Below are positions 2,477 through 45,829 of a DNA stretch of 64,000 nt, in pieces (position 1 is the stretch's first letter; each line of letters starts with the position of its first letter). A program made the translations under genes and the position numbers. The notes beneath the pieces are model-generated. The model saw only the letters and a list, made by a program, of their open reading frames with translations. It ran no database searches and had not been told where the DNA came from. This DNA is from Chryseolinea sp. H1M3-3 (GTDB lineage: Bacteria > Bacteroidota > Bacteroidia > Cytophagales > Cyclobacteriaceae): assembly GCF_029360725.1 (NCBI RefSeq), contig NZ_JARKMY010000001.1, positions 1,302,001 through 1,366,000 of the forward strand, given 5' to 3'.

Positions 2477-3211
2477 TCAGGTGAAATATTGTGTTACTCT
2501 ATTGAGTTCTCGTAAATAAAGTTGAATGGTGTTTTCTAACCCATAGTAAAGCGCGTCACAGATCAATGCATGACCGATAGAAACTTCATCCAAATGTTCA
2601 ATATGCTGGGCAAAAAAATTCAAGTTTTCCAATGAAAGGTCATGGCCAGCATTAATACCTAACCCTGCCTGATGAGCGACCTTGGCACTTTCTATATAGG
2701 GTTTAATAGCGATGTCTCTGTTGAGCGAAAACTCGTGCGCATAAGGTTCGGTGTAAAGCTCAATACGATCTGCGCCGATTTCTTTCGCTGCCTCCACCAT
2801 TTTTGGAATTGGATCGACAAAAATTGAAACTCTTACCCCGTTCGATCTTATTTTAAAAACAACCTCTTTCAGGAAGCTTCTATGCTTTATGGTATCCCAC
2901 CCTGCATTGGATGTAATGGCTTGCGGGGGATCAGGAACTAGCGTTGCCTGCGCGGGCCTCACTTGTTCGATGATATGGAGATATCTTTCGTCAGGATATC
3001 CTTCGATATTAAATTCGGTTTTGACAACACTCTTCAGCGCCAGCACGTCACTATAACGAATGTGTCGCTCGTCTTGGCGAGGATGTACCGTGATTCCTTG
3101 TGCTCCGAATCGTTCACAGTCCTGTGCAGCCTTTATAACATCTGGATTATTTCCGCCCCGCGCATTTCGGAGTGTTGCAATTTTATTAATATTGACGCTT
3201 AGTCTTGTCAT
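2477..3211 (-). CDS. pdxJ: pyridoxine 5'-phosphate synthase
   Basis: 244 residues, the usual PdxJ length. This TIM-barrel enzyme condenses 1-deoxy-D-xylulose 5-phosphate with 3-amino-1-hydroxyacetone phosphate to make pyridoxine 5'-phosphate, in the DXP-dependent vitamin B6 route. Recognisable stretches are VNINKIATLRNARGG at the N-terminus (phosphate and substrate loop), GITVHPRQDERHI at about residues 38-50, RIELYTEPYA, GLGINAGHDLSLENL, and the C-terminal EVSIGHALICDALYYGL. It is the first gene of a minus-strand run leading into the TPM genes and is divergent from yqeY across an 83-bp gap. Position next to an alpha/beta hydrolase, a CBS protein and nadK resembles other Bacteroidota. Confidence 0.97.
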   Translation of the reverse strand: MTRLSVNINKIATLRNARGGNNPDVIKAAQDCERFGAQGITVHPRQDERHIRYSDVLALKSVVKTEFNIEGYPDERYLHIIEQVRPAQATLVPDPPQAITSNAGWDTIKHRSFLKEVVFKIRSNGVRVSIFVDPIPKMVEAAKEIGADRIELYTEPYAHEFSLNRDIAIKPYIESAKVAHQAGLGINAGHDLSLENLNFFAQHIEHLDEVSIGHALICDALYYGLENTIQLYLRELNRVTQYFT

Positions 3212-14134: not shown

Positions 14135-15357
14135 AAACCAGAAGCAATACTTTTTGCAGCGATAAAGGATGTCGTCCATGCGTTTTGAAAGTTAAACCCA
14201 CCTGTCTCTCCGTCAATATTTAATACTTCGCCTGCAAAGTAAACGTTGTTCATCTTTTTACTTTCCATCGAATTAATATTTATTTCACTCAAATCAACAC
14301 CACCGCAGGTTACAAACTCCTCTTTAAATGTCGTTTTGCCTGTAATGTTAAACGGGCATCGAATTAAATATTCAATCAACCTGTTTAGTTCTTTTTTTGA
14401 GAGTTCCGACCAAATTCTATCGTCCCCTATTTCGGCCAGCGCATATAACCTTTGGGCTAAACGCAACGGCAACTTGAACAAGGAATGCGTGGTAACTTTT
14501 TGTTTGCTTGTGGATAACTTGTTTCTCAGCAGAATTTCTCTCAGCTCATCTTCTTTCATGCCTCCTAACCAGTTCACCAAGACCGTAAACTTGTACTGTA
14601 CCTGGTACAGGTATTCTGCCGCCCAGGATGAAAGTTTAATTACAGCTGGCCCACTTAATCCCCAATGCGTAATCAACACAGGACCTTCCTGTAAAAATTT
14701 CGTTCCTGCAATTTTCACTTCGGCGTGAGGTACTGAAACCCCCATTAAATCCTTGAATTTTTGATCCGAATCGTTGAATGTAAATAATGATGGAATAGGT
14801 GTTTTTATGGTGTGATGTAGATCAGCAATAAACTGATAAGCGTGAGCTTGTGGACTTCCACCTGTGGCAACAAGAATTTTTGTCGCCGAATAACTGTCTC
14901 CATCCGCACAGAAAATCTTTATTTCGTTTTTTTCTTGTTTGATTTGTGAAACATTTTTACCCAACATTATTTTTATTTTCAATTTTTGGGCTTCGCTAAT
15001 AAAACAATCTATGATGGTTTGCGAGGAGTTTGTATGAGGAAACATTCGTCCATCACTTTCTGCATTAAGAATTACTCCTTTCGATGCAAACCATTTTACG
15101 GTATGCTCAGCATGGAATATGCTCAATAAATTTTTTAGTGCTTTTTCGCCCCGGGGATAATGACGAGAAAATTCAAAAGGATTGTAGTTATGGTGCGTAA
15201 CGTTACATCGGCCACCACCTGATATTTTAACTTTCGATAATAATTTATTCGATTTTTCCAGAATTAAAATCTTCAAACCCGCCCTCATTTCCGCAGCTTG
15301 GATAGCCCCAAAAAATCCAGCGGCGCCCCCGCCTATGACGATTAGATCAAAATGCAT
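14131..15357 (-). CDS. NAD(P)/FAD-dependent oxidoreductase (BaiN/HI0933-like)
   Basis: 408 residues, usual for the HI0933/YhiN/BaiN flavoprotein family. The FAD dinucleotide fold is at the N-terminus (LIVIGGGAAGFFGAIQAAEM), then the family signature SGGGRCNVTHHN, a substrate domain, and the C-terminal FAD-binding NVYFAGEVLNIDGETGGFNF with WTTSFIAAKSI. One member reduces bile-acid intermediates, but most have no known substrate. It is cytoplasmic. It diverges from the methyltransferase gene across about 50-90 bp and converges on the LD-carboxypeptidase. Confidence 0.9.
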   Translation of the reverse strand: MHFDLIVIGGGAAGFFGAIQAAEMRAGLKILILEKSNKLLSKVKISGGGRCNVTHHNYNPFEFSRHYPRGEKALKNLLSIFHAEHTVKWFASKGVILNAESDGRMFPHTNSSQTIIDCFISEAQKLKIKIMLGKNVSQIKQEKNEIKIFCADGDSYSATKILVATGGSPQAHAYQFIADLHHTIKTPIPSLFTFNDSDQKFKDLMGVSVPHAEVKIAGTKFLQEGPVLITHWGLSGPAVIKLSSWAAEYLYQVQYKFTVLVNWLGGMKEDELREILLRNKLSTSKQKVTTHSLFKLPLRLAQRLYALAEIGDDRIWSELSKKELNRLIEYLIRCPFNITGKTTFKEEFVTCGGVDLSEININSMESKKMNNVYFAGEVLNIDGETGGFNFQNAWTTSFIAAKSIASGF

Positions 15358-23823: not shown

Positions 23824-26800
23824 ATGGGAGCAGGATTAGATAGTATTCACAAAAAAATAAAATCATTCAACAAGAAATATTACCTCAATATTTTTGTTCG
23901 AGGCGCTATTCTATCCTTATCAATCCTCTTCTCTTATTTTTTGTTAGCTACAGTTCTTGAACATAATTTATGGTTAGGCCCTGTACCAAGGCTTCTGATT
24001 CTTTTAACATTTATAGGAATAGCCGTTTTTTGTGTTTTAAGATTTTTGAAGGAGCCACTGAAATGGTGGTTGATAAAACGAGGCCTCAGCGAAGAACAAA
24101 GTGCGAAAGTCATTGGTAGCTATGTTCCTCAAGTAAAGGATGGATTGCTCAATCTTATTCAGTTGGCATCTTCAGGGAAAAATTCTGCACTTACATATGC
24201 GACTATAGATCAAAGGTCCAAAGAATTTGATCCAGTCGCATTCGATGCTTTCATTAATCTTAATGAAAATAAAAAATACCTGAAATTTCTGTTCGTTCCA
24301 GTTGTCCTTATAGTTCTAATCTTATTAATAAACCAAAGTATATTGACTCAAAGCGCCGATCGAATCGTGCACTTTACTCGTAAATATTCACCAACGGCCC
24401 CTTTTTCATTTTCGGTTCCTAAGACGCTCACCGGATTTTATAATGAACCCTATGTCCTGGAGGTGGAACTTCTTGGAGACGCCTTGCCGACTGACCTTTA
24501 TTTGTTGAGCGGGAACCAACGTCTCAAGTTTGAAAAAACACAAGCGTTAAATAAATTCTCCCACACTTTTGAAAATTTGCAAGGCGACTTTAATTTTCAA
24601 TTAGAGGCTGCCGGATATTTCTCAAATGAATATCACATGGCCGTTGTTAGCCGGCCTGAGCTTTCGGGATTCAACGTCGGTCTTCAGTTCCCTAAATATA
24701 TTCAACGAAAAAATGAGACCTTATTGAACGCAGGGAATTTGGAAATTCCAGAAGGCACCGTCGTGCAATGGAAGCTAACGACGGAGAACGCAAACAAAGC
24801 TGCCATCTTGTTTGATAATGATAAGTCAAAGGAACTTTTTAGTGATGTTGACGGGGAGATATTTACCTTTCAAAAAAGTTTTAAACATCCAGACCATTAT
24901 GAAATTCTTTTAGAAAATGAACAAAGTTCTAACAAAGAAAAAATATCCTACCACATTGATGTCATAAAAGACCAATATCCAAAAATCAGTGTCAATAATT
25001 TCAAGGACTCAGTCTTATATAAAACGGTTGTACTAAGCGGCGTGATCGGGGACGATTATGGGGTGACGAAGTTGGCTTTGCATTTTAAACTTCGTGACCA
25101 AAATAGGAAGGAAATACTAAATAGGACTACGAACATCCCGATTTCCAGAAATCAGATTCAACAGACATTCTTCCACCATTGGACTTTAGATTCCTTAAAA
25201 CCTAACCCTGGGGAACAACTGGAATACTTCTTAGAGGTATGGGATAATGACGGTGTAAATGGGAAAAAATCTACTAAGACATCCAGTTATACTTTTTTAA
25301 TCCCTACGGAGGACAATCTTGTGGCTGAAATAAAGCAATCGCAAACTAAGACGCAGCAGAAAATAGATCAAAGTGTTGGAAAAGCAAATAAACTTCAAGA
25401 CCAATTGGAACAAGCCAATCAAAAATTAAAAGGAAAACAGACGCTGGATTGGCAAGACAAAAAAATGTTAGAAGATATTATTCAGCAGAAAGAAGGACTT
25501 GACAAGATGGTTGAAGAATTGAAACAACAAAATAAACTCCTGGAAGACAAGAAAGACGCTTTTACAGAACAAGATGAACGGATCCGCGAAAAAGCGGCGC
25601 AAATCCAAAAACTGATGGAGGAATTGTTGGATGAAGAAACCAAAAAGCTTTTTGAAGAATTGCAAAAATTATTGAAGGAAAATGCTGACATGTCCCAACT
25701 GCAAAAGTTGTTGGACAAGCTCAATCAGAACACCAATAATTTAGAGAAGGAGTTGGAGCGGACACTTGAGTTATTTAAACAGCTTCAATACGAAACCAAA
25801 CTTGATCAGATTGCGCAGAATTTGAAGGAACAAATTGAAAAACAAAAATCTCTCCTAGAAAAAACCGAATCCTTAGATAAAAAGGATGATGGGAATAAAA
25901 GTAAGGACAAGAACGCAGACAATAAAAATACAGAAGAAGCTACGTCGGAATCTGAAAACGAACAGCTAGCGAAAGATCAGGAGGCATTGCAAAAAGAGTC
26001 AAAAAAGACCGCCGAGCAAATCGAAGAATTGGAAAAGCTCGGTGAGGAGATTCAAAAGAACGAGGACCTACCGTCAGAGGAAGACAGCCAGGAAATTCAG
26101 GAGCAACAGGAGCAGAGTAAAGAGATGCTTAAACAGAACAGCCCCTCCAAATCAAAGGCGCCACAACAAAAAGCGTTGCAAAAAATGAAGCAAATGCAAC
26201 AACAAATGGAAAGTGCGCAGAATTCCATGTCTATGGAAATGGATATGCAAAATATTGAAAGTCTTCGTCAAATAATTCATGGGCTTGTGAAGCTATCATT
26301 TGACCAGGAGAACCTGATGAAGGGCTTTAATGACCTTAACCAAAGCGACCCCAGATTCAATACCCTAGCGCAAAACCAAATCAAATTGAAGGATGATGCT
26401 AAAGTTCTGGAAGACAGCCTGTTAGCTTTAGGAAAGCGTGATCCTTTTATGGGTTCTATCGTTACTAAAGAGGTCGGCGAACTTAATGATCATTTAGATA
26501 AAGTCATTGAAGCGAACCGCGAACGTCGAAAACCCAAAGCCTCAAGTGAAATGCAAATGACTATGACGTCAATAAATAATCTTGCATTAATGTTGGACGA
26601 GCATTTTGATATGATGATGCAAATGATGGCTAATGCTCAGCCCTCTATGGGTAAGTCAAAGAAGAAAGGTCAGAAACCCAGCTTAAGTCAAATGCAACAA
26701 CAATTGAATGAGAAAATTCAACAATTGAAAGGTGGAGGAAAGTCTGGTCGACAATTGTCTGAGGAGTTAGCGGAAATGGCGGCGGAGCAAGAACGTATCA

Positions 26801-27171
26801 GGCGTGCATTAAAGGAAATGGAGGATAAGATGAAAGAAGGAGGCAAAATGCCGGGGGGGGATCTTCCATCTAAGATGGAACAAACCGAGATGGATTTAGT
26901 TAACAAACAGTTGACGGACCAATTGATAAAAAGACAACAAGAAATCCTTACCAGGCTTCTGGAAACAGAAAAGTCAGCTCGGGAACAAGACATGGATGAG
27001 GAACGGAAAGGTGAAACCGCAAAAGAATATGACAAAGAAATTCCAAGAGCGTTTGAAGACTATTTGCGCCTAAAAGAAAAAGAAGTAGAATTGTTAAAAA
27101 CAGTGCCACCGAAACTTTACCCGTACTACAAAAAGGAAGTAAACGAGTATTTTAAAAGAATCGGGAATTAA
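23824..27171 (+). CDS. DUF4175-family membrane protein with long coiled coil
   Basis: 1115 residues. Three hydrophobic helices sit at the N-terminus (about 28-48, 57-75 and 150-170; FLFVPVVLIVLILLINQSIL is the third). Immunoglobulin-like beta-rich regions follow at about 180-480. A very long Lys/Glu/Gln-rich coiled coil runs from about 500 to 900, with Met/Gln-rich patches (KMKQMQQQMESAQNSMSMEM). The C-terminal helix bundle ends VPPKLYPYYKKEVNEYF, which is conserved in the family. DUF4175 proteins sit beside MoxR/DUF58 gene sets or alone in Bacteroidota; the function is unknown. Next genes are an RsbW-like ATPase 20 bp away and ybeY. Confidence 0.85.
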   Translation: MGAGLDSIHKKIKSFNKKYYLNIFVRGAILSLSILFSYFLLATVLEHNLWLGPVPRLLILLTFIGIAVFCVLRFLKEPLKWWLIKRGLSEEQSAKVIGSYVPQVKDGLLNLIQLASSGKNSALTYATIDQRSKEFDPVAFDAFINLNENKKYLKFLFVPVVLIVLILLINQSILTQSADRIVHFTRKYSPTAPFSFSVPKTLTGFYNEPYVLEVELLGDALPTDLYLLSGNQRLKFEKTQALNKFSHTFENLQGDFNFQLEAAGYFSNEYHMAVVSRPELSGFNVGLQFPKYIQRKNETLLNAGNLEIPEGTVVQWKLTTENANKAAILFDNDKSKELFSDVDGEIFTFQKSFKHPDHYEILLENEQSSNKEKISYHIDVIKDQYPKISVNNFKDSVLYKTVVLSGVIGDDYGVTKLALHFKLRDQNRKEILNRTTNIPISRNQIQQTFFHHWTLDSLKPNPGEQLEYFLEVWDNDGVNGKKSTKTSSYTFLIPTEDNLVAEIKQSQTKTQQKIDQSVGKANKLQDQLEQANQKLKGKQTLDWQDKKMLEDIIQQKEGLDKMVEELKQQNKLLEDKKDAFTEQDERIREKAAQIQKLMEELLDEETKKLFEELQKLLKENADMSQLQKLLDKLNQNTNNLEKELERTLELFKQLQYETKLDQIAQNLKEQIEKQKSLLEKTESLDKKDDGNKSKDKNADNKNTEEATSESENEQLAKDQEALQKESKKTAEQIEELEKLGEEIQKNEDLPSEEDSQEIQEQQEQSKEMLKQNSPSKSKAPQQKALQKMKQMQQQMESAQNSMSMEMDMQNIESLRQIIHGLVKLSFDQENLMKGFNDLNQSDPRFNTLAQNQIKLKDDAKVLEDSLLALGKRDPFMGSIVTKEVGELNDHLDKVIEANRERRKPKASSEMQMTMTSINNLALMLDEHFDMMMQMMANAQPSMGKSKKKGQKPSLSQMQQQLNEKIQQLKGGGKSGRQLSEELAEMAAEQERIRRALKEMEDKMKEGGKMPGGDLPSKMEQTEMDLVNKQLTDQLIKRQQEILTRLLETEKSAREQDMDEERKGETAKEYDKEIPRAFEDYLRLKEKEVELLKTVPPKLYPYYKKEVNEYFKRIGN

Positions 27172-27191
27172 TAAATAAGAAGAGCCAATTC

Positions 27192-27596
27192 ATGAATACC
27201 ATTAGCATCCAGGTTCCGTCTATCGCGGAGAACATCAGAATGATTGAAAGTTTTATAGATAATGCAAAAGAACGTTTTCATTTAGATGATGACATTTATG
27301 GTAACATCATGATAGCTGTCACTGAAGCGGTAAATAATGCAATCAAGCACGGGAATGCGAATAACAAAGATAAGAATGTCCACCTGGCTCTTTCCTTAGA
27401 TGACAGTATGATTCGCTTCGTGGTTAAGGACGAGGGTGAGGGGTTTGATTTTGACAATTTGCCGGATCCTACGGCTCCAGAAAACCTTGAAAAGCTGGGT
27501 GGCAGAGGTATTTTTCTAATGAAACATCTTTCTGATGAAGTCGACTTTAAGGATAGGGGCCGCGTCGTTGAATTGTCCTTTTATATTAATGTTTAA
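27192..27596 (+). CDS. RsbW-like serine kinase/anti-sigma ATPase (HATPase_c_2)
   Basis: 134 residues, typical for the stand-alone GHKL ATPases of the SpoIIAB/RsbW type. The N-box is AVTEAVNNAIKHGN, the G1-like box DEGEGFDFDNLPDP, and GGRGIFLMKHLSDEV is the G2 box. No kinase partner, STAS or sigma factor is adjacent. Such proteins phosphorylate anti-sigma-factor antagonists or bind sigma factors; in Bacteroidota the partner is unknown. Its stop overlaps the ybeY start by 1 bp (taATG). Confidence 0.9.
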   Translation: MNTISIQVPSIAENIRMIESFIDNAKERFHLDDDIYGNIMIAVTEAVNNAIKHGNANNKDKNVHLALSLDDSMIRFVVKDEGEGFDFDNLPDPTAPENLEKLGGRGIFLMKHLSDEVDFKDRGRVVELSFYINV

Positions 27597-28027
27597 TGCC
27601 TGCGATCCATATTTTCTATGAAGACGTTTCATTTCGTCTCAAATTGATCAGAAATAAGAAATCCTGGATTAAGAAAGTAATCGAAGCTGAACACAAGAAA
27701 CTTGGTGTATTGAACTATATTTTTTGTTCTGATGCTTTATTGCTTAAAATGAACTTGGAATATCTAGGGCACAATACTCTAACTGACATAATAACCTTCA
27801 ATAACTCACAAGAAGAAACCCTGATTGAGGGAGATATTTATATCAGTATTGAGAGAGTAAGAGAAAATGCCCATAAGTTTGCGTCTGGCTTTGAAAACGA
27901 ACTCCACCGTGTGATGATCCATGGCGTATTGCATCTGCTTGGGTACTCGGACAAAACCAGGGCTCAAAAATTAGCCATGCGAAAAAAGGAGGATGAGTGT
28001 TTAGCTTTGGGGACGAAATTGCATTGA
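27596..28027 (+). CDS. ybeY: endoribonuclease YbeY
   Basis: 143 residues. A single-strand-specific zinc RNase for 16S rRNA 3'-end maturation and ribosome quality control. The metal motif is IHGVLHLLGYSDKT; the two His are present, and the usual third His is replaced by Ser-Asp, a variant I associate with Bacteroidota (GYxDK). The N-terminal part has FHFRLK-like FRLKLIRNKKSWIKKVIEAE and NTLTDIITFN. Translationally coupled to the ATPase gene by 1 bp. Confidence 0.94.
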   Translation: MPAIHIFYEDVSFRLKLIRNKKSWIKKVIEAEHKKLGVLNYIFCSDALLLKMNLEYLGHNTLTDIITFNNSQEETLIEGDIYISIERVRENAHKFASGFENELHRVMIHGVLHLLGYSDKTRAQKLAMRKKEDECLALGTKLH

Positions 28028-28029
28028 AT

Positions 28030-28045
28030 TGTTCCACGTGAAACT
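28030..28045. promoter_or_regulatory. candidate parS (ParB-binding) site 1
   Basis: TGTTCCACGTGAAACT matches the widely conserved parS consensus TGTTNCACGTGAAACA at 15 of 16 positions (N counted as a match). It lies 3 bp after the ybeY stop. The pairing with site 2 at 28086 raises confidence. No parB or parA is in the window. Confidence 0.75.
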
Positions 28046-28048
28046 AAT

Positions 28049-28077
28049 TGTGGAAATGTGGATGAAATTGTGGGTAA
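28049..28077 (-). repeat. three TGTGG repeats resembling DnaA boxes between two parS-like sites
   Basis: On the plus strand TGTGGAAAT (28049), TGTGGATGA (28057) and TGTGGGTAA (28069) read on the minus strand as ATTTCCACA, TCATCCACA and TTACCCACA, similar to the DnaA-box consensus TTATNCACA. TTACCCACA is the best, one mismatch from it. Confidence 0.45.
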
Positions 28078-28085
28078 CATTTATA

Positions 28086-28101
28086 AGTTCCACGTGGAAC
28101 A
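28086..28101. promoter_or_regulatory. candidate parS (ParB-binding) site 2
   Basis: AGTTCCACGTGGAACA has a perfect 14-bp palindromic core GTTCCACGTGGAAC, and its reverse complement is TGTTCCACGTGGAACT, one or two changes from the parS consensus. It sits 6 bp before the mnmG start and 56 bp from site 1. Confidence 0.75.
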
Positions 28102-28107
28102 GCGACT

Positions 28108-29973
28108 ATGTTTAAAGAATACGATGTAATAGTAATTGGTGCGGGTCACGCCGGGTGCGAGGCCGCCTATGCGGCAGCAACAATGGGTTCAAAGGTGCTG
28201 CTGGTAACCATGAATATGAACACAATAGCTCAAATGTCGTGCAATCCCGCTATGGGAGGTGTGGCAAAGGGGCAAATAGTGCGAGAAATCGATGCGTTAG
28301 GTGGACAGTCTGGCCTTGTCTCGGATAAATCCATGATCCAATTCCGGATGTTGAATCTATCCAAAGGTCCGGCGATGTGGAGTCCTAGAACGCAGAATGA
28401 TCGCATGCGCTTTTCGGAGGAGTGGCGATTAACTCTTGAACGGAATCAAAACGTTGATTTTTGGCAGGAAATGGCGAGCAGCCTTGTCATTGAGGGGGGT
28501 AAGGTATCCGGCATTATAACAGCATTGGGATTAAAAATCAGGGGAAGGGCCGTAGTCCTTACCAATGGAACTTTCTTAAACGGCAAAATTCATATTGGTG
28601 AAAAACATTTCGGTGGAGGCCGGGCGGCGGAAGGTGCGGCCTTCGGCATAACAGAACAATTGACCAAAGTTGGTTTTGAGGCAGGCCGAATGAAAACAGG
28701 CACACCTCCTCGAATAGATGGGCGAAGTCTAAATTATGCCAAGATGGAGGAGCAAAAAGGCGACCTTAACCCCGGTAAGTTTTCATTTCTTCCCGAATCG
28801 CAACCGTTGTCGGCCCAAGTAAGCTGTTGGATAACATATACCAACGAAGAGGTACATAATGAACTAAAGAAAGGATTTGACAAATCTCCAATGTTTCAGG
28901 GTAGAATAAAAGGGCTTGGTCCTAGGTATTGTCCATCAGTGGAAGATAAAATTAACAGGTTTGCCGAAAGAGAAAGACACCAAATTTTTGTCGAGCCTGA
29001 GGGCTGGAATACGGTGGAGATATATGTAAATGGGTTTTCCACGTCGCTACCAGAAGATGTCCAATATAAAGCACTTACCAAGATTCCTGGTTTTGAAAAT
29101 GCCAAAATGTTTAGACCTGGATACGCAATTGAATACGATTATTTCCCGCCTACGCAATTGAAGTCTACTTTGGAAACACAACTAATTGATAACCTGTTTT
29201 TTGCAGGTCAAATTAATGGAACTACAGGATACGAGGAAGCCGCCAGCCAAGGCCTAATGGCAGGGATTAATGCGCATAATAAAGTTCATGGATGCGATCC
29301 ATTTATTCTAAAAAGATCCGACGCATACATTGGCGTTCTAATTGACGATTTGGTAAACAAGGGCACTCAGGAACCTTATCGTATGTTTACGTCTCGGGCA
29401 GAGTATCGCATCCTTCTTAGACAAGATAATGCGGATATCCGACTAACTGAGCTTGGACATAAGATAGGACTGGCCAGCGACGAGAGGTTAGACATAGTCA
29501 AGTCGAAAATATCGGCCGTGGCCACGTTGACACAGGAACTCAATAAACTTCGACTTAACCCGGATTCCATTAATTCAAGCTTGGCTCAATTAAATACTTC
29601 CGAAATCAGGGAAAAAATAACCGCTTCCCAGCTATTAAAAAGGCCACAGATAGGCATCGAGGATTTGAAAAAGCTGCATGGGAATATAAAAACGATGTTG
29701 GAATCTTATTCGCCCGAGGTTCTTCAACAAGCCGAAATAAACATTAAATACGAGAGTTACATCGAACGCGAGCAACACAACGCGCTAAGGATAGGAAGCC
29801 TCGAAAGTTACAAAATCCTGGAAGACTTTGATTATGACCGAGTTAAGGCATTGTCCTCGGAGGCGCGCGAAAAACTAAAAAAGGTTAGGCCAGAAACCGT
29901 CGGTCAGGCATCAAGAATTAGCGGTGTTTCTCCAGCCGATGTTTCGGTACTAACTATTTACATGGGCAAATGA
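28108..29973 (+). CDS. mnmG: tRNA uridine-5-carboxymethylaminomethyl(34) synthesis enzyme MnmG
   Basis: 621 residues, the usual length. With MnmE it uses FAD, methylene-tetrahydrofolate and glycine or ammonium to modify U34 of tRNAs. Features are the FAD fold VIVIGAGHAGCEAAYAAATM, SCNPAMGGVAKGQIVREIDA, FLNGKIHIGEKHFGGGR, MKTGTPPRIDGRSL, FAGQINGTTGYEEAASQG and TSRAEYRILLRQDNAD. All signature segments are intact. Its 5' gap carries two parS-like sites. The next gene overlaps its stop by 4 bp (ATGA). mnmG borders oriC in many bacteria. Confidence 0.98.
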   Translation: MFKEYDVIVIGAGHAGCEAAYAAATMGSKVLLVTMNMNTIAQMSCNPAMGGVAKGQIVREIDALGGQSGLVSDKSMIQFRMLNLSKGPAMWSPRTQNDRMRFSEEWRLTLERNQNVDFWQEMASSLVIEGGKVSGIITALGLKIRGRAVVLTNGTFLNGKIHIGEKHFGGGRAAEGAAFGITEQLTKVGFEAGRMKTGTPPRIDGRSLNYAKMEEQKGDLNPGKFSFLPESQPLSAQVSCWITYTNEEVHNELKKGFDKSPMFQGRIKGLGPRYCPSVEDKINRFAERERHQIFVEPEGWNTVEIYVNGFSTSLPEDVQYKALTKIPGFENAKMFRPGYAIEYDYFPPTQLKSTLETQLIDNLFFAGQINGTTGYEEAASQGLMAGINAHNKVHGCDPFILKRSDAYIGVLIDDLVNKGTQEPYRMFTSRAEYRILLRQDNADIRLTELGHKIGLASDERLDIVKSKISAVATLTQELNKLRLNPDSINSSLAQLNTSEIREKITASQLLKRPQIGIEDLKKLHGNIKTMLESYSPEVLQQAEINIKYESYIEREQHNALRIGSLESYKILEDFDYDRVKALSSEAREKLKKVRPETVGQASRISGVSPADVSVLTIYMGK

Positions 29974-30860
29974 TTGAGGTGACTAATTGCCCCATTTGCA
30001 ATGGCAAGAACTTTGTGCCCTACCTCCAGTGTTGCGATCACTCAGTTACACAAGAAACGTTTAGCCTTATTAAATGCACCAAGTGTGGACTTGTCATTAC
30101 CTCACCGCGACCCGACGATCTCGAAATTCAAAAATACTACGCGTCGTCTACATATATCTCTCACTTAGGCACCGCTCAAACGTTACTCGACCGAATCTAC
30201 CTTTTTGCCAGAAGCTTTACGTTGCGTTGGAAATGGTCAATAGTCGAACGAAACATTCTGCCAACACTCGAAAAAAAAATCTTAGATTTTGGGTGTGGCA
30301 CTGGCGAGTTTTTAAGAACCGCCAAACAACATTCCTGGAACGTAGCCGGTGTCGAACCGTCGGAGAATGCCCGGACACAAGCCTCACCCGAAGTTTTTAA
30401 TCACATTAAAAGTTCTTTGCCAAATTTTTCAAATCAAACATTTAATGTTATTACACTCTGGCATGTTTTAGAACATGTAAGCGATTTGGATTCTACCATC
30501 GGTGACCTTAAAAATCATTTAACACAAGAGGGCACACTATTTATTGCAGTACCAAACCACAGCAGTTGGGATGGGAAACATTACCAGGAAAAATGGGCTG
30601 GATATGACGTGCCAAGGCATTTCTGGCACTTCAACTCCAAAAACATGTTAATGTTACTTGAGAATCACTCTCTGGAGCTGGTTGAAATAATACCGATGAG
30701 GCTAGACGCGTTTTATATCAGTTTGTTGTCAGAAAAATACAGTCACAACCGCATGTCGGCGGTCGGCTTAATTAAAGCGTTTTTTTATGGATGTTTCAGT
30801 AATGTCAATGCTAAAAAAAATAACGAATATTCAAGTTTAATTTATGTAGCACGTAAATGA
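29970..30860 (+). CDS. class I SAM-dependent methyltransferase with N-terminal zinc ribbon
   Basis: 296 residues. Four cysteines in CPIC (residues 7-10) and CTKC (near 36-39) form a probable zinc ribbon, followed by a Methyltransf_23 domain with SAM motif ILDFGCGTGEFLRTAKQHSW near residues 105-125 and VEPS. IKCTKCGLVITSPRPD is typical of the family. HVLEHVSDLDSTI and PNHSSWDGKHYQEKW follow. The substrate is unknown; such genes often methylate small molecules or sugars. Sense-strand composition is unusually C-rich for this window (see findings). Coupled to mnmG and to the next gene by 4-bp overlaps. Confidence 0.85.
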   Translation: MIEVTNCPICNGKNFVPYLQCCDHSVTQETFSLIKCTKCGLVITSPRPDDLEIQKYYASSTYISHLGTAQTLLDRIYLFARSFTLRWKWSIVERNILPTLEKKILDFGCGTGEFLRTAKQHSWNVAGVEPSENARTQASPEVFNHIKSSLPNFSNQTFNVITLWHVLEHVSDLDSTIGDLKNHLTQEGTLFIAVPNHSSWDGKHYQEKWAGYDVPRHFWHFNSKNMLMLLENHSLELVEIIPMRLDAFYISLLSEKYSHNRMSAVGLIKAFFYGCFSNVNAKKNNEYSSLIYVARK

Positions 30861-32545
30861 ATATTTTAAAAAATACTCATTGGCTACTGTTTTGCATCTT
30901 CCTTACAGCTTGTGCAAGGCAAACTACGCCAACCGGTGGGCCCAAAGACTCTATACCTCCCACATTAGTAAACTCAAACCCAGTCCATGAGCAACTAAAC
31001 TTCAGTGGCAAAACTATCGACATGACGTTCTCTGAGGCCGTTATTCTAAATAATCCAAAAGAACAATTGATCATCACGCCCGACCTTGGAGAGGACGTCG
31101 ATGTAAAAACAAAAAAAAACCAAGTTACAATCACACTTACTAACGCACTAAAGGAAAACACTACCTACTCGATAAACTTCCGAGAGGCGATACAAGACAT
31201 CACTGAAAAAAATCCGGCACAGATGTTAAAGCTCGCATTCAGCACCGGCGACTATATTGACTCTCTATCCATCGACGGGACTATTTACGATCTGCTAACA
31301 GGTAAAGAATTGAAGGATGCAACGATTGGCCTATACACATCAGATACATTTAATATCTTCAAGCATCGTCCAACATATCTCACTAAATCAGATAGTAAGG
31401 GAAAATTCAAAATCGAAAACCTTAAACCAGCACAATATTTTATCTATGGTCTAGATGACAAAAACAAAAATCTTATAGCCGACAGCCGCACAGAGTCATA
31501 TGGCTTCCTCCGAGAACCGATTGTTTTAGCGAAAGATACATCTCAAATTAGCATACCCCTGTTTCGTCTCGACAGTCGTCCATTAAAACTAACAAGTGCA
31601 AGGCCATTTGGAACATACTTCAACATAAAAACCACTAAAAGTTTAACATCATACGCCCTTTCTGCCAACAAAGAAAAGAACATCGTCTCAAGCTTCGGAG
31701 AAGACCTTTCCAACATTAAAGTATATAACACATTTAAGGATATGGATAGCGTACAAATTCACTTTACGGCACGAGACAGCCTAAGCAATATCCTCGACAC
31801 TTTATTATATGTAAAGTTTCTTGAACGTGACACAAGACCAGAGCCGTTCGAGTTTTCGTTGCAAAATTTCCAGCTCACCAACACAAAAGGAATTCTTAAA
31901 GGGCAGATAAAATTCTCAAAACCGATAGAGCAGATAAATTTCGACAGTCTATACTATGTTATAGACTCTACCCGAATAGTACCATTTTCTCCAGAAAACT
32001 TTTCCTGGGACACCCTCAACAACCTACTCTCTATCGAGAAAAAAATTGATAGAAGCCTCCTAATACCTCAAAAAGAAGAACAACAAAAACAACCCTCCAC
32101 ACCACAACTCACCACCAAAAACAAACAAACAACAACAACAAATAACCAATTGCACCTAGGAAAATCGGCATTCATTAGCATCGAATCTGACAGCTCAAAA
32201 CGAATAACAGAAAAAATTACTCCGATGAAATTAGAAGATACAGGAATAATTTTTGTCCAGGTAGAAACAAAAGCGCCTCATTTCATTATACAACTGCTAA
32301 CATCTGACTTTAAAGTCATCGACACCAAACGTAACATCAAAAAAACAAGCTTTGAAGACCTTAAACCAGGAGACTATCAAATTCGTTTAATAGTAGATAA
32401 GAATGACGATGGAAAATGGGACGCTGGTGACTATTTTCTTAAGGATGAACCTGAACATGTAGTCTTTTATAAGAACGAAAAAGGAGTCGCTCTAATAAAC
32501 CTAAAAGCAAATTGGGAGCTTGGCCCTTTGTTGATAAAAGACTAA
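30857..32545 (+). CDS. Ig-like (SbsA/BIG_5-type) domain lipoprotein
   Basis: 562 residues. The signal ends FCIFLTAC with Cys19, then QTTPTGGPKDSIPPTLVNSN, the family start for Bacteroidota lipoproteins of this type. An Ig-like domain follows at about 38-125, with IDMTFSEAVILNN and YSINFREAIQDITEKNP. A carboxypeptidase-regulatory-like beta domain (SIDGTIYDLLTGKELKDATI) is next. A Gln/Thr/Asn low-complexity stretch lies at about 412-432 and a C-terminal domain ends WELGPLLIKD. It is probably surface- or periplasm-facing on the outer membrane. Function unknown. It is the last gene before the AT-rich gap. Confidence 0.8.
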   Translation: MNILKNTHWLLFCIFLTACARQTTPTGGPKDSIPPTLVNSNPVHEQLNFSGKTIDMTFSEAVILNNPKEQLIITPDLGEDVDVKTKKNQVTITLTNALKENTTYSINFREAIQDITEKNPAQMLKLAFSTGDYIDSLSIDGTIYDLLTGKELKDATIGLYTSDTFNIFKHRPTYLTKSDSKGKFKIENLKPAQYFIYGLDDKNKNLIADSRTESYGFLREPIVLAKDTSQISIPLFRLDSRPLKLTSARPFGTYFNIKTTKSLTSYALSANKEKNIVSSFGEDLSNIKVYNTFKDMDSVQIHFTARDSLSNILDTLLYVKFLERDTRPEPFEFSLQNFQLTNTKGILKGQIKFSKPIEQINFDSLYYVIDSTRIVPFSPENFSWDTLNNLLSIEKKIDRSLLIPQKEEQQKQPSTPQLTTKNKQTTTTNNQLHLGKSAFISIESDSSKRITEKITPMKLEDTGIIFVQVETKAPHFIIQLLTSDFKVIDTKRNIKKTSFEDLKPGDYQIRLIVDKNDDGKWDAGDYFLKDEPEHVVFYKNEKGVALINLKANWELGPLLIKD

Positions 32546-32861
32546 CAACCTGTGGATATCTTTTGAAAGTGCGATCATAATCAAACAAATTTCCTAAGGT
32601 GCCCTATATCTGCTAGGCCTATGTGTATAACATAGACTTTACCAACATCCATCAACAATACATTCGATCCACAACTCATTTTTCCACACCGACTAACGCA
32701 TGTTTAAAAACTACAAAACCAACTGATGTTTAACAACTTACTCCTAGATACATATCCACATTAACTCAACACTGAAAAACAGGATGAACTAGTTCACATA
32801 TACACACTGTTAATTATAGTAATAAAAATATATATTATATAAGAATAATAAGGACCAACCC
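32546..32861. other. candidate chromosomal replication origin (oriC) region
   Basis: No gene is visible in this 316-bp gap. It holds about six DnaA-box-like 9-mers: TTATACACA (minus strand, 32622-32630), matching TTATNCACA exactly; ATATCCACA (minus 32551-32559 and plus 32752-32760), ATATACACA (32798-32806) and TTTTCCACA (32680-32688), each one mismatch away; and CGATCCACA (32665-32673), two mismatches away. A 40-bp AT-only run with only one or two G at its end follows at about 32810-32850, like a DNA-unwinding element. It is 4.4 kb from the parS pair at 28,030-28,101. dnaA is not adjacent. Confidence 0.6.
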
Positions 32862-34727
32862 ATGCGGATAACATTCTTACTAATATTTCTTGCCACAATA
32901 GTGCAGGCCCAGAATCAAGAGGAGATTCAGTTAGCAAACGAATATGTTTTGAAGGGAGATAAAAAGAAAGCACTTGAGCTTTTTAAAGAACTCTCAAAAC
33001 ATGATGTTAATTATCCTTACATTTATAACAACTACTTTAATTTATTACTGGATCTAAGTGCATATGACGACGCTCAAAAACTTGTACAAAAACTTTCAAA
33101 AAAAGATCCACTTAACATCCAATACAATCTTGACCTTGGACTGATTTACGTTCGATCCGGTGACTTGGCCAAAGCAGATCGATACTACAAAGACCTAATT
33201 TCAGGCAACAAAGGCAGTGTCCAACGGATCAAAATGATGTCTGATTTTTTTATGTCAAGATCCCTGATCGACTACGGTATTCAGGCGTTGACTGAGAGCA
33301 GGCAAGCGTTGGGAAATCCTTATCTTTTTTGTCTCGAGTTAGCAATGCTTCACCGAATAAAGGGAAATCAGGATAAGATGGTTCAAGAATACCTTAGCTA
33401 TGTCACCCAGAGTTCAGCCAATATTCAGTATGTAAAAAACGTGATGCAAGCGTTATTGACGAAGCCTGAGGAGTTGGAAAGCCTAGAAAAGCTTTTGTAC
33501 GAAAAAATCCAAGCAGACCCAGACATAGAAGTCTATTCCGATCTTTTAATCTGGGTAACGATGCAACAGAAAAACTTTTACGCATCATTCATTCAAGCTC
33601 GTGCCTACGATAAACGCTATAAGCGCGAAGGTGAAAAATCTATGGAGGTCGCGCGTGTTGCGCTCGACAATGAGGATTATGACAACGCGCTAAAGGTCTA
33701 TCGTTGGGTTATACGTGAATTTCCCAATGGACAAACCTACTTGTTAGCCCGACTTGGCCTTATCCGTACGCGTGAAGCACGAGTCAAAAATACATTTCCA
33801 ATTAACAGAGATTCGGTCAACATCCTTATTGCTGATTATAAAGATTTTATTAAGCAATATCCGGATAATGTGAATGCATTGGAAGCAGCAAGAAGCGAAG
33901 CGTTGCTTTTTGCGAATTATTTGGACCAAAAGGATTCGGCTGTACAAATAATTTCAAAACTTATCGCTAACCCTCGGGCATCGTTACATCTTAAATCAAA
34001 GGCCAAACTCGATCTTGGAGACATATATTTATTAAAAGGAGAGCCATGGGAATCGACTTTACTGTATTCACAGGTTGAAAAAATCCAAAAGGAGAACCCA
34101 TTAGGATACGAAGCAAAACTAAAAAACGCCAAACTTTCTTACTACAAGGGGAATTTCCGTTTAGCTCAAGAACATCTAGATATACTTAAGCAAGCAACGA
34201 CGAGGGAAATTTCAAATGATGCATTGGATCTTAGTATGCGCATTAAAGAAAACATTGCTTTTGATTCTATTGGAGAAGCCTTAAAGCAGTATGCATCAAT
34301 AGAGTTGTTATTATATCAAAACAAAAATGATCAGGCACTCCAAAGAATTCAACAATTGAAAGAAGGCCGGACTTCTAACCTTTCAACATCTAGTTTGGAT
34401 TCTGCGAAAATGATTTCCAACCAAGCCATTCTTGACGACGTATATTGGCTAGAGGCAAATATTAGAATGCGGCAGGGGGAATTTGAGAACTCAATTTCTT
34501 TGCTACAAAAAATCATCAAAGATTATGGTGACGATATCCTGGCAGATGATGCATACTTCTTGCAGGGGGAAATCTACGAACGTCAACTTGCACAAAAAGA
34601 CAAAGCGATGGAGATTTACCGCGAATTTTTAAACAAATATCCAGGCAGTGTATATGCCGCCGAGGCCCGAAAAAGATTTAGATTACTGCGTGGAGATTTC
34701 AGCGGGCAAGAACAACCTCAACTGTAG
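32862..34727 (+). CDS. tetratricopeptide-repeat protein, periplasmic
   Basis: 621 residues with a signal peptide (MRITFLLIFLATIVQAQ). Helical repeats with TPR-like spacing run through most of the protein: VLKGDKKKALELFKELSK, LGLIYVRSGDLAKADRYYKD, VALDNEDYDNALKVYRWVIR, LDLGDIYLLKGEPWESTLLY, AYFLQGEIYERQLAQKDKAM and EFLNKYPGSVYAAEARKRF. The last repeats resemble YbgF/TolA-associated TPRs. Such proteins are scaffolds for protein complexes in the periplasm; the partner cannot be told. It is the first gene after the candidate origin. Confidence 0.85.
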   Translation: MRITFLLIFLATIVQAQNQEEIQLANEYVLKGDKKKALELFKELSKHDVNYPYIYNNYFNLLLDLSAYDDAQKLVQKLSKKDPLNIQYNLDLGLIYVRSGDLAKADRYYKDLISGNKGSVQRIKMMSDFFMSRSLIDYGIQALTESRQALGNPYLFCLELAMLHRIKGNQDKMVQEYLSYVTQSSANIQYVKNVMQALLTKPEELESLEKLLYEKIQADPDIEVYSDLLIWVTMQQKNFYASFIQARAYDKRYKREGEKSMEVARVALDNEDYDNALKVYRWVIREFPNGQTYLLARLGLIRTREARVKNTFPINRDSVNILIADYKDFIKQYPDNVNALEAARSEALLFANYLDQKDSAVQIISKLIANPRASLHLKSKAKLDLGDIYLLKGEPWESTLLYSQVEKIQKENPLGYEAKLKNAKLSYYKGNFRLAQEHLDILKQATTREISNDALDLSMRIKENIAFDSIGEALKQYASIELLLYQNKNDQALQRIQQLKEGRTSNLSTSSLDSAKMISNQAILDDVYWLEANIRMRQGEFENSISLLQKIIKDYGDDILADDAYFLQGEIYERQLAQKDKAMEIYREFLNKYPGSVYAAEARKRFRLLRGDFSGQEQPQL

Positions 34728-40068: not shown

Positions 40069-41244
40069 ATGGATGCATATGTGGTAGCTGCAAAGAGAAC
40101 TGCAAATACTCGGGCAAAGAGAGGGGGATTTCGTTTTAGCCGTCCAGATGATTTTGCAACTGAAATAATAAAAGCTTTAGTACAATCCATTCCTGGATTA
40201 GAAAATAAGATGGTTGACGATCTTATAGTCGGCAATGCCGTGCAAGAAGCTGAGCAAGGGATGCAAATGGGAAGAATGATTGCTCTTACCGCGTTGGGGA
40301 TGGAAAATGCTGGTATGGTAATAAACCGGTACTGTGGTTCTGGCATTGAAGCGATTCATTTAGCCTCAGCTAAAATAAACGCAGGCATGGCTGACTGCAT
40401 TATTGCCGGAGGCACTGAATCCATGTCGCTGGTGCCGGTCATGGGTTGGAAAACAGCCCTTAATTACAAGATCGCCAAGGAAAATCCATCCTATTACACA
40501 AGCATGGGCCTTACCGCTGAGGAGGTAGCCAAGCAATTTAAGATATCGCGAGATGATCAGGATAAGTTTGCGTACGAGTCACACATGAAGGCAATCAAAG
40601 CCCAACAGGAAGGAATATTTAGAGATGAGATTCACCCCATTACAGTGCAGGAAGTGTATGTGGACGATGCAGGAAAAAAGAAGTCGCGTGAGTTTGTTGT
40701 TGATACCGACGAAGGACCTAGGCCTGATACAAATTTAGAAGCTCTTTCAAAATTAAAACCTGTTTTTGCCATGGGCGGAACTGTAACGGCTGGTAATTCA
40801 TCGCCAACTACAGATGGAGCGGCGTTTGCAGTTGTTATGTCTGAACGGCTGATCAAGCAGCTTAACATTCAACCAATTGCCAGAATGGTTAGCTATGCCG
40901 TTGCAGGCGTGGATCCTAAAATTATGGGTATCGGTCCGGTAGCTGCAGTCCCGAAGGCATTGCACCGTGCAGGCATGAAGCTGGGCGATATCCATCGCAT
41001 TGAATTAAATGAAGCTTTTGCCGCACAGTCGTTGGCAGTAGTGCGTGAACTAAATATTGATCCGACAAAGCTGAATGTTAATGGAGGAGCAATTGCCATT
41101 GGTCACCCTCTCGGAAGTTCAGGCGCGCGCTTATCCCTTACGTTGTTTAATGAGTTGAGGCGAAGTAAAAGCAAATATGGAATGGTTACAGCTTGTGTTG
41201 GTGGCGGCCAAGGCGTCGCGGGAATTTACGAGTTGCTGAATTAG
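40069..41244 (+). CDS. fadA: acetyl-CoA C-acyltransferase (3-ketoacyl-CoA thiolase)
   Basis: 391 residues, typical thiolase. It cleaves 3-ketoacyl-CoA to acetyl-CoA and a shortened acyl-CoA. The nucleophile Cys89 is in NRYCGSGIEAIH, His346 in IAIGHPLGSSGARL, and Cys376 in TACVGGGQG; the NEAFAAQS motif is present. It follows the dehydrogenase/hydratase by 2 bp and precedes the acyl-CoA dehydrogenase by 50 bp, in the order of the pathway operon. Whether the preferred chain length is short or long cannot be told. Confidence 0.94.
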   Translation: MDAYVVAAKRTANTRAKRGGFRFSRPDDFATEIIKALVQSIPGLENKMVDDLIVGNAVQEAEQGMQMGRMIALTALGMENAGMVINRYCGSGIEAIHLASAKINAGMADCIIAGGTESMSLVPVMGWKTALNYKIAKENPSYYTSMGLTAEEVAKQFKISRDDQDKFAYESHMKAIKAQQEGIFRDEIHPITVQEVYVDDAGKKKSREFVVDTDEGPRPDTNLEALSKLKPVFAMGGTVTAGNSSPTTDGAAFAVVMSERLIKQLNIQPIARMVSYAVAGVDPKIMGIGPVAAVPKALHRAGMKLGDIHRIELNEAFAAQSLAVVRELNIDPTKLNVNGGAIAIGHPLGSSGARLSLTLFNELRRSKSKYGMVTACVGGGQGVAGIYELLN

Positions 41245-45548: not shown

Positions 45549-45656
45549 ATATAGATTGTTAAAAGAATGATAACAACATTATATTAATCCCATTATAATT
45601 CAAGTACTTAGAATGTAAAGAATTTCGTTCAAAAAGAATTCCACAATTCTGTCCAC

Positions 45657-45742
45657 TTATCCACATCCCTATGAGGCAATGACTTATATTAAAGATAGTC
45701 AGCTACTTACAACAATTTTTTTCAATTAATTCTTGTGGACAA
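45657..45742. other. DnaA-box-like sites in the tlpA/nitronate monooxygenase gap
   Basis: The 281-bp gap (45549-45829) holds an exact TTATCCACA at 45657-45665 and TTGTCCACA on the minus strand at 45734-45742, in AT-rich DNA with no gene. Only two good boxes are seen, fewer than at 32.5-32.9 kb. Confidence 0.45.
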
Positions 45743-45829
45743 CTTAAAATTGACAATAAATCCAACAAATTGTTAGGCTTTTTGAGTTGAATTTAAAATG
45801 AAAATTAAAAGATGTTTAAATGAATAATA

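Follow-up and report, generated by a model that had tools for sequence, protein, structure and literature searches.

Gene order and a cluster of DnaA boxes downstream of mnmG

We analyzed a stretch of 64,000 nucleotides from Chryseolinea sp. H1M3-3, hereafter called the window, which corresponds to positions 1302001–1366000 of contig C1 in a genome assembly of 6.88 Mb and 19 contigs (G000). Chryseolinea is placed in Fulvivirgaceae, Cytophagales, in the NCBI taxonomy. Five genes on the plus strand and one gap of 316 bp make up the locus:

27596–28027, plus strand: ybeY (TIGR00043, above cut-off)
28108–29973, plus strand: mnmG, also called gidA (TIGR00136, above cut-off)
29970–30860, plus strand: gene for a methyltransferase-domain protein (PF13489)
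30857–32545, plus strand: gene for a Big_5/DUF2141 protein, termed IgL, assigned by domain match; left neighbour of the gap
32546–32861, no strand: predicted oriC, flanked by the genes for the Ig-like lipoprotein and the TPR protein, based on box cluster, skew switch and conservation
32862–34727, plus strand: gene for a TPR-repeat protein, assigned by domain matches; right neighbour of the gap

The closest named relatives of the TPR protein were those of a Chryseolinea MAG (86%) and of Chryseolinea serpens and C. lacunae (77%). No ORF of at least 80 aa overlapped the 316-bp gap, which agrees with its earlier description as gene-free, and an Rfam search of the window returned no match. At positions 24001–28000, the plus strand showed a strong A-over-T skew, up to 0.32, across the DUF4175 gene.

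The first-pass annotation had proposed the gap as a candidate chromosomal origin bearing six DnaA-box-like 9-mers. All six were recovered at the claimed places, and in comparison with TTATNCACA one was exact, four had one mismatch and one had two mismatches. The boxes of the gap, including two further sites that were recognized in relatives, are listed below (z, score in relatives, computed without the window):

32551–32559, minus strand: DnaA box ATATCCACA, a conserved column (z = 4.3)
32622–32630, minus strand: DnaA box TTATACACA, exact TTATNCACA (z = 4.3)
32639–32647, plus strand: extra DnaA-box-like site TTACCAACA, degenerate in the window and a box in relatives (z = 3.7); absent from the first-pass annotation
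32665–32673, plus strand: DnaA box CGATCCACA, two mismatches (z = 4.0)
32680–32688, plus strand: DnaA box TTTTCCACA (z = 3.4)
32752–32760, plus strand: DnaA box ATATCCACA, the weakest (z = 2.7; only 9% of 22 relatives match at 7 or more of 8 positions)
32790–32798, plus strand: tandem-pair box 1 TAGTTCACA, degenerate in the window and the best conserved (z = 5.3; 77% of 22 relatives match at 7 or more of 8 positions)
32798–32806, plus strand: tandem-pair box 2 ATATACACA, likewise weak (z = 3.2; 18% of 22 relatives match at 7 or more of 8 positions)

Five boxes with at most one mismatch were present in the gap, a number reached by none of 5000 shuffles (mean 0.56), where the shuffles, for box and trio statistics alike, preserved base composition only and not dinucleotides. 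Within the scanned part of contig C1 (1,252,803 bases; 1.25 of 6.88 Mb, 18% of the genome), the gap was the densest box cluster, with 6 sites within 316 bp from position 32529 (0.32 expected). Two further places on C1 contained 5 sites, namely a repeat array at C1:80392 and a place overlapping two divergent ORFs at C1:1031758; the former (G000:C1:80392-80560) is short, and its TTATACATA-containing repeats mimic a cluster of DnaA boxes. Over the whole window, matches to TTATCCACA with at most one mismatch numbered 26 versus 18.4 expected, which was not significant (7 of 100 shuffles reached 26), so it is the clustering that counts. The gap therefore carries a box cluster beyond chance, as a DnaA-dependent oriC should, even though the window's own boxes are weak, with one exact box and two mismatches in tandem-pair box 1.

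Conservation of the gap among relatives

A search for the locus in named relatives returned 24 loci, two of which (L131 and L132) were distant and without synteny and were excluded. In all of the remaining 22, the order DUF4175-RsbW-YbeY-parS-MnmG-methyltransferase-IgL-gap-TPR was unbroken, and mnmG was preceded by two or three parS sites. When the gap alignment was scored for box likeness with the window left out, the top eight of 536 column-strand combinations were 32790+, 32622−, 32551−, 32665+, 32639+, 32680+, 32798+ and 32752+, that is, the six boxes already reported and, in addition, 32639 and 32790, both decayed in the window.

We also counted boxes per locus at the family and order levels, taking the best 30 matches per search (own locus and one repeat included) and placing gene starts by tblastn (L193 and L242 are cut by contig ends). 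Among the best 30 matches in the family, two loci had no upstream DNA, and all 28 assessable loci (own plus 27) had 4–15 boxes within 460 bp upstream of the TPR gene, counts that at most 1% of shuffles reached in each case. Counted by gap, the family loci had 3–14 boxes, and L080, of the same genus, had only 3. Among the best 30 matches in the order, 28 loci (26 from other families) were evaluated, of which 19 had a box excess at the 5% level or better and 9 showed none before the TPR gene. Both the position and the boxes, conservation of which had been suggested as a check of an origin here, are thus kept in relatives: synteny in 22/22, the reported boxes among the top eight alignment columns, and enrichment in 28/28 family loci.

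A tandem box pair, a trio run and an AT-rich element at the right end

The right end of the gap, beginning with the tandem pair at 32790–32806, continues with two overlapping features:

32807–32824, minus strand: DnaA-trio-like run CTG TTA ATT ATA GTA ATA (plus-strand letters), six 3'-NAN-5' triplets, aligned with the CTAATAATAA-type runs of relatives
32810–32852, no strand: AT-rich element, predicted unwinding region (40/43 A/T)

The 40-bp AT-only run described earlier at this end does not stand as worded, since the longest pure A/T run is 23 bp (32820–32842); what does stand is that an AT-rich element adjoins the boxes and holds the AT-richest 40-mer of the window (38/40).

Across relatives, the best-conserved element was a pair of tandem boxes on the plus strand, 8–9 bp apart. 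In the window, the pair reads TAGTTCACATATACACA, with boxes spaced 8 and overlapping by one base, and the spacing of 8 is common to relatives. In most relatives, the pair was followed by 2–3 bases, then by a CTAATAATAA-like run (3'-GAT TAT TAT-5' on the opposite strand), and then by AT-rich DNA. Of 49 sequences examined in a trio survey, two had no pair; in the 47 used, TA[AG]TA[AG] was found within 40 bases past the pair in 41, and CTA was the first plus-strand triplet in 21. The summed trio length over the 47 sequences was 136, compared with 107.5 ± 7.8 in shuffles (maximum of 500, 128). Runs of at least 3 trios occurred in 26/47 sequences (16 by shuffling) and runs of at least 4 in 9/47 (6.6 by shuffling), so that the runs are individually weak, and the excess of trios across relatives is modest for runs of at least 4.

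This layout can be compared with the basal unwinding system (BUS) of the Bacillus subtilis oriC, which is described as broadly conserved in the available portions of two reports (PMC6669920, PMC8287927), one of which gives a potential BUS in 1755 of 2070 species searched; the word stem 'Bacteroid' occurs 0 times in the main text of the two. According to the passages available, the BUS search rule allows up to 2 mismatches to TTATCCACA in one DnaA box and up to 4 in a second, and it requires three or more 3'-NAN-5' trios no farther than 16 bp from the box, NAN being a general search rule and 3'-GAT-5' the commonest published trio, particularly beside the box (PMC8287927). The window passes the box rule, with 2 mismatches to TTATCCACA in ATATACACA and 3 in TAGTTCACA, and it passes the trio rule with six trios from 32807, a lenient rule for which shuffles of the stretch average 2.3. 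Trio statistics on a single sequence were too weak to be used as stand-alone evidence, and we trust the trio run of the window only because the same cassette recurs in relatives. As far as the BUS is described there, the two share tandem DnaA boxes beside an A-centred trinucleotide run with a short spacer, unwinding on that side and further boxes at a distance. Unlike the described BUS, the element in Chryseolinea does not lie beside dnaA, its boxes overlap by one base (spacing 8), its trio run is ATA-rich on the plus strand, and the first box of its pair is degraded in the window.

A switch in strand composition near the gap

Strand composition was evaluated at four-fold sites, because the alternatives, raw GC skew and the bias in gene strand, gave a noisy signal on the own contig or one that led elsewhere: the raw GC-skew minimum of C1 was at window position 3168, 29 kb from the gap and still inside the window, and the gene-strand minimum was at C1:823085, away from the gap. 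With 75% of C1 sampled, the four-fold-site GC skew of the plus strand changed from −0.033 (G-poor) to +0.032 (G-rich), with the best change point at window position 40530, 8 kb right of the gap. The 3-log-likelihood interval was C1:1316668-1366171, i.e. from window position 14668 to 171 bases past the right end of the window. The sign switch lay within about 25 kb of the gap. None of 2000 permutations of 10-kb blocks reached the observed gain of 25.2 (maximum 15.4), and the 5–95% range of a residual bootstrap was 1.28–1.41 Mb, with the gap at 1.334 Mb.

Two complete genomes of relatives were sampled in addition. For G036 (one contig, 6.52 Mb, 40 samples, denser near the locus), the best two-arc model had its origin-type switch at sample 828001–848000, which contains the TPR gene (836356–838155), and the opposite switch at 4785001; a model with the switch one sample earlier (760001) scored almost equally (106.9 versus 107.3), and the sample at 900001 had the wrong sign. 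For G028 (6.75 Mb, 20 samples), the switch fell between 6.03 and 6.365 Mb, at an offset of 0.25–0.6 Mb from the locus at 5.785 Mb; a model that brackets the locus, with the switch just ahead of the 6.03-Mb sample, scores 9 units lower. The switch is thus close to the locus without matching it, and we count the offset as weak evidence against an origin here or as the possible result of a rearrangement. A strand-composition switch as expected of an oriC was therefore located to about 50 kb on the own contig and also in G036, with G028 off. The expectation of the first-pass annotation that the skew minimum should fall at the gap held for the four-fold-site switch of the own contig, and it did not hold for the raw minimum (29 kb off), the gene-strand minimum (elsewhere) or G028 (0.25–0.6 Mb off).

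The width of the change-point interval on C1 bears on another reading of the gap. The sites datA and DARS are DnaA-titration and DnaA-reactivation sites, respectively, and if the gap was of such a kind, the origin would lie elsewhere within some tens of kb. The change point, uncertain by about 50 kb and best placed 8 kb to the right, would accommodate this. Positions 45549–45829 of the window would do so too: they lie between divergent genes and contain, along with the second AT-richest 40-mers, two boxes, one matching TTATCCACA exactly (45657) and one, TTGTCCACA, with a single mismatch (45734). That region is by itself a possible second DnaA site. On the other hand, the tandem pair, trio run and AT-rich end of the gap form the layout of an unwinding system, and the sampled contig holds no denser cluster. 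We consider a titration or reactivation site improbable.

parS sites and DnaA boxes ahead of mnmG

The 80-bp interval between ybeY and mnmG contains the following sites:

28030–28045, plus strand: parS site 1, exact TTCCACGTGRAAC
28057–28065, minus strand: DnaA-box-like site TCATCCACA, between the parS sites
28069–28077, minus strand: DnaA-box-like site TTACCCACA, between the parS sites
28086–28101, plus strand: parS site 2, exact TTCCACGTGRAAC

No other exact TTCCACGTGRAAC site occurs in the 19 contigs of the assembly. The starts of the two sites at 28030 and 28086 confirm a parS pair 4.4 kb from the gap, a proximity expected of an oriC. Within 28046–28085, the DnaA-box-like sites are interleaved with the pair. 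A search of 28 other genomes of the family left two without an mnmG match at a strict cut-off; all 26 mnmG loci found had at least one exact parS upstream and 24 had two or more, in a sample that is not random, as 17 of the loci came from genomes picked for lacking a good TPR match. Some parS-like sites were also seen elsewhere in named relatives. A palindrome GTTTCACATGAAAC, one base off parS, lies early in the methyltransferase gene in 13/22 (L109 7111, L113 7185, L114 7155 and ten more loci) and is not in the window, and a GTTTCACGTGAAA-type site with one mismatch lies inside the DUF4175 gene in 6/22 (L117 2213, L118 2218, L123 2177, L124 2125, L125 2140 and L127 2120). The only ParB_N match of the genome was at G000:C11:63328-63606, on a different contig from the parS pair and dnaA.

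Over the 130 bp preceding mnmG, the 22 named relatives had 28 boxes versus 4.0 by shuffling, with at least one box in 19/22, whereas the 26 other family loci showed no box excess (4 boxes versus 5.1 by shuffling). The parS-side boxes thus appear to be an addition in closer relatives. In the main gap, the mean box number per 460 bp was 5.5 for the 22 named relatives versus 8.1 for 26 other family loci (Mann–Whitney p = 0.0004, for sequences that are not independent).

The enrichment in named relatives (28 boxes in 22 loci versus 4.0) could mean that the true origin is the ybeY–mnmG gap (28028–28107), with its parS sites and two DnaA boxes, and that 32546–32861 is an accessory DnaA site; published Bacteroidota origins at or beside mnmG, as presented in the available parts of the reports (PMC11278836, PMC12843772), point the same way. 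However, the region upstream of mnmG lacks a box excess in the other family loci, where the gap following IgL has one, and nothing comparable to the AT-rich element at 32810 is present in the 80-bp gap. As sole origin, the ybeY–mnmG gap was rejected on these two grounds, and the chance that it is the true origin is slight.

Persistence of the boxes after replacement of the TPR gene

In 28/28 assessable family loci among the best 30 matches, the TPR gene is immediately preceded by the boxes, as it would be if they formed a DnaA-regulated promoter of that gene and no origin. Among 60 family genomes, 15 had no TPR match and 4 more had a weak one; four of these 19 had no IgL match, and the remaining 15 were judged. 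In all 15, a different gene follows IgL (CoA-ligase-like, MarR-like or outer-membrane-like, judged by eye), and the 520 bp past IgL contained 6–13 boxes, compared with 0.6–1.1 by shuffling. Since the cluster was kept in 15/15 replacements, the boxes belong to the place and not to the TPR gene. The promoter reading, which also leaves the skew switch unexplained, is largely refuted by this natural gene replacement and very unlikely.

An origin beside dnaA is the common bacterial arrangement, and default annotation would put it there. In this genome, dnaA is at C1:208594-209079, 1.12 Mb from the gap, so that the two are not adjacent, as had been remarked earlier. An origin near dnaA (C1:208594) was rejected and is the least credible alternative, as no skew switch was seen at dnaA (the flanking samples were all slightly negative) and the 5 kb around it contained six scattered one-mismatch boxes, about the background rate. 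A second, weaker Bac_DnaA-domain match (34 bits) was found in a 282-aa frame at G000:C14:5478-5903.

Discussion

Origins away from dnaA have been reported in Bacteroidota before. According to the available text on Mariniflexile litorale (Flavobacteriaceae), dnaA was automatically set as the origin and misfitted the skew, and Ori-Finder 2022 pointed to mnmG (PMC11278836; the legend of its Figure 3 labels the genes opposite to its text), a case that makes apt the earlier remark that pipelines relying on dnaA would miss the present origin. For Algorimicrobium bowmanii (Flavobacteriaceae), the available text likewise gives an Ori-Finder origin at mnmG (PMC12843772). These share with our locus a Bacteroidota origin that is off dnaA, linked to mnmG and compared with GC skew; they differ in that the text available on them describes no box layout, parS or cross-genus comparison, and in that the gap here is three genes downstream of the parS–mnmG junction. 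In a Hi-C study of 12 gut bacteria from mouse, including two Bacteroidetes (Bacteroides caecimuris and Muribaculum intestinale), the origin was not systematically located with dnaA and was placed by parS, skew and read depth, as far as its available text goes (PMC10197239). There too a parS cluster marks the origin, but its position was approximated from the skew inversion nearest to parS, and the portion available describes no DnaA-box element (PMC10197239). The oriC of Yersinia and E. coli lies between gidA and mioC, according to the part of the report available (PMC10225481). Here mnmG is a neighbour as well, but the E. coli-type oriC as described directly adjoins gidA, whereas mnmG, the methyltransferase gene and IgL separate parS from the gap in Chryseolinea. 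Within the accessible parts of the open-access literature searched, we found no experimentally dissected Bacteroidota origin. Since Bacteroidota origins on the mnmG side and off dnaA have already been reported, the general fact is known, and what we add is the detailed element and its conservation.

The gap 32546–32861 is most probably the chromosomal replication origin, to which we assign a probability of about 0.93 on the evidence of the DNA itself. The skew switch nearby, the boxes with their positional conservation and the AT-rich end support this proposal of the first-pass annotation, and the pair-plus-trio layout and the parS neighbourhood accord with it. As the relatives sampled keep the arrangement, the gap represents a new and well-supported case of an element type that was already known. 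We are highly confident that the location beside segregation sites and not beside dnaA, although unusual, is of an already known kind and that the origin is of an ordinary type.

At such an origin, DnaA would bind the boxes on the left and in the middle of the gap (32551 to 32760) as well as the tandem pair (32790–32806), and an oligomer of ATP-DnaA would extend from the pair onto one strand of the trinucleotide run (32807–32824) and open the AT-rich stretch to about 32852. The replicative helicase would be loaded at the opened stretch, and initiation would send out two forks in opposite directions. Once bound by ParB, the parS pair at a distance of 4.4 kb would mark the new origins for segregation.

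A split origin in the window and its closer relatives is conceivable, and we put it forward tentatively, assuming that these form one clade: a weakened main unwinding gap may be accompanied by a second group of DnaA boxes, interspersed with the parS sites at a distance of 4.4 kb, where DnaA and ParB would share a small region and initiation and segregation could be directly coupled.

For this family of Cytophagales, the oriC proposed here would provide a base-level origin map, of use for correct rotation of genomes, estimation of growth rates from coverage and building of mini-replicons, and the gap offers a concrete sequence on which a Bacteroidota origin can be tested. Whether or not the origin is split, the DnaA boxes interleaved with parS represent a possible and testable link from initiation to segregation.
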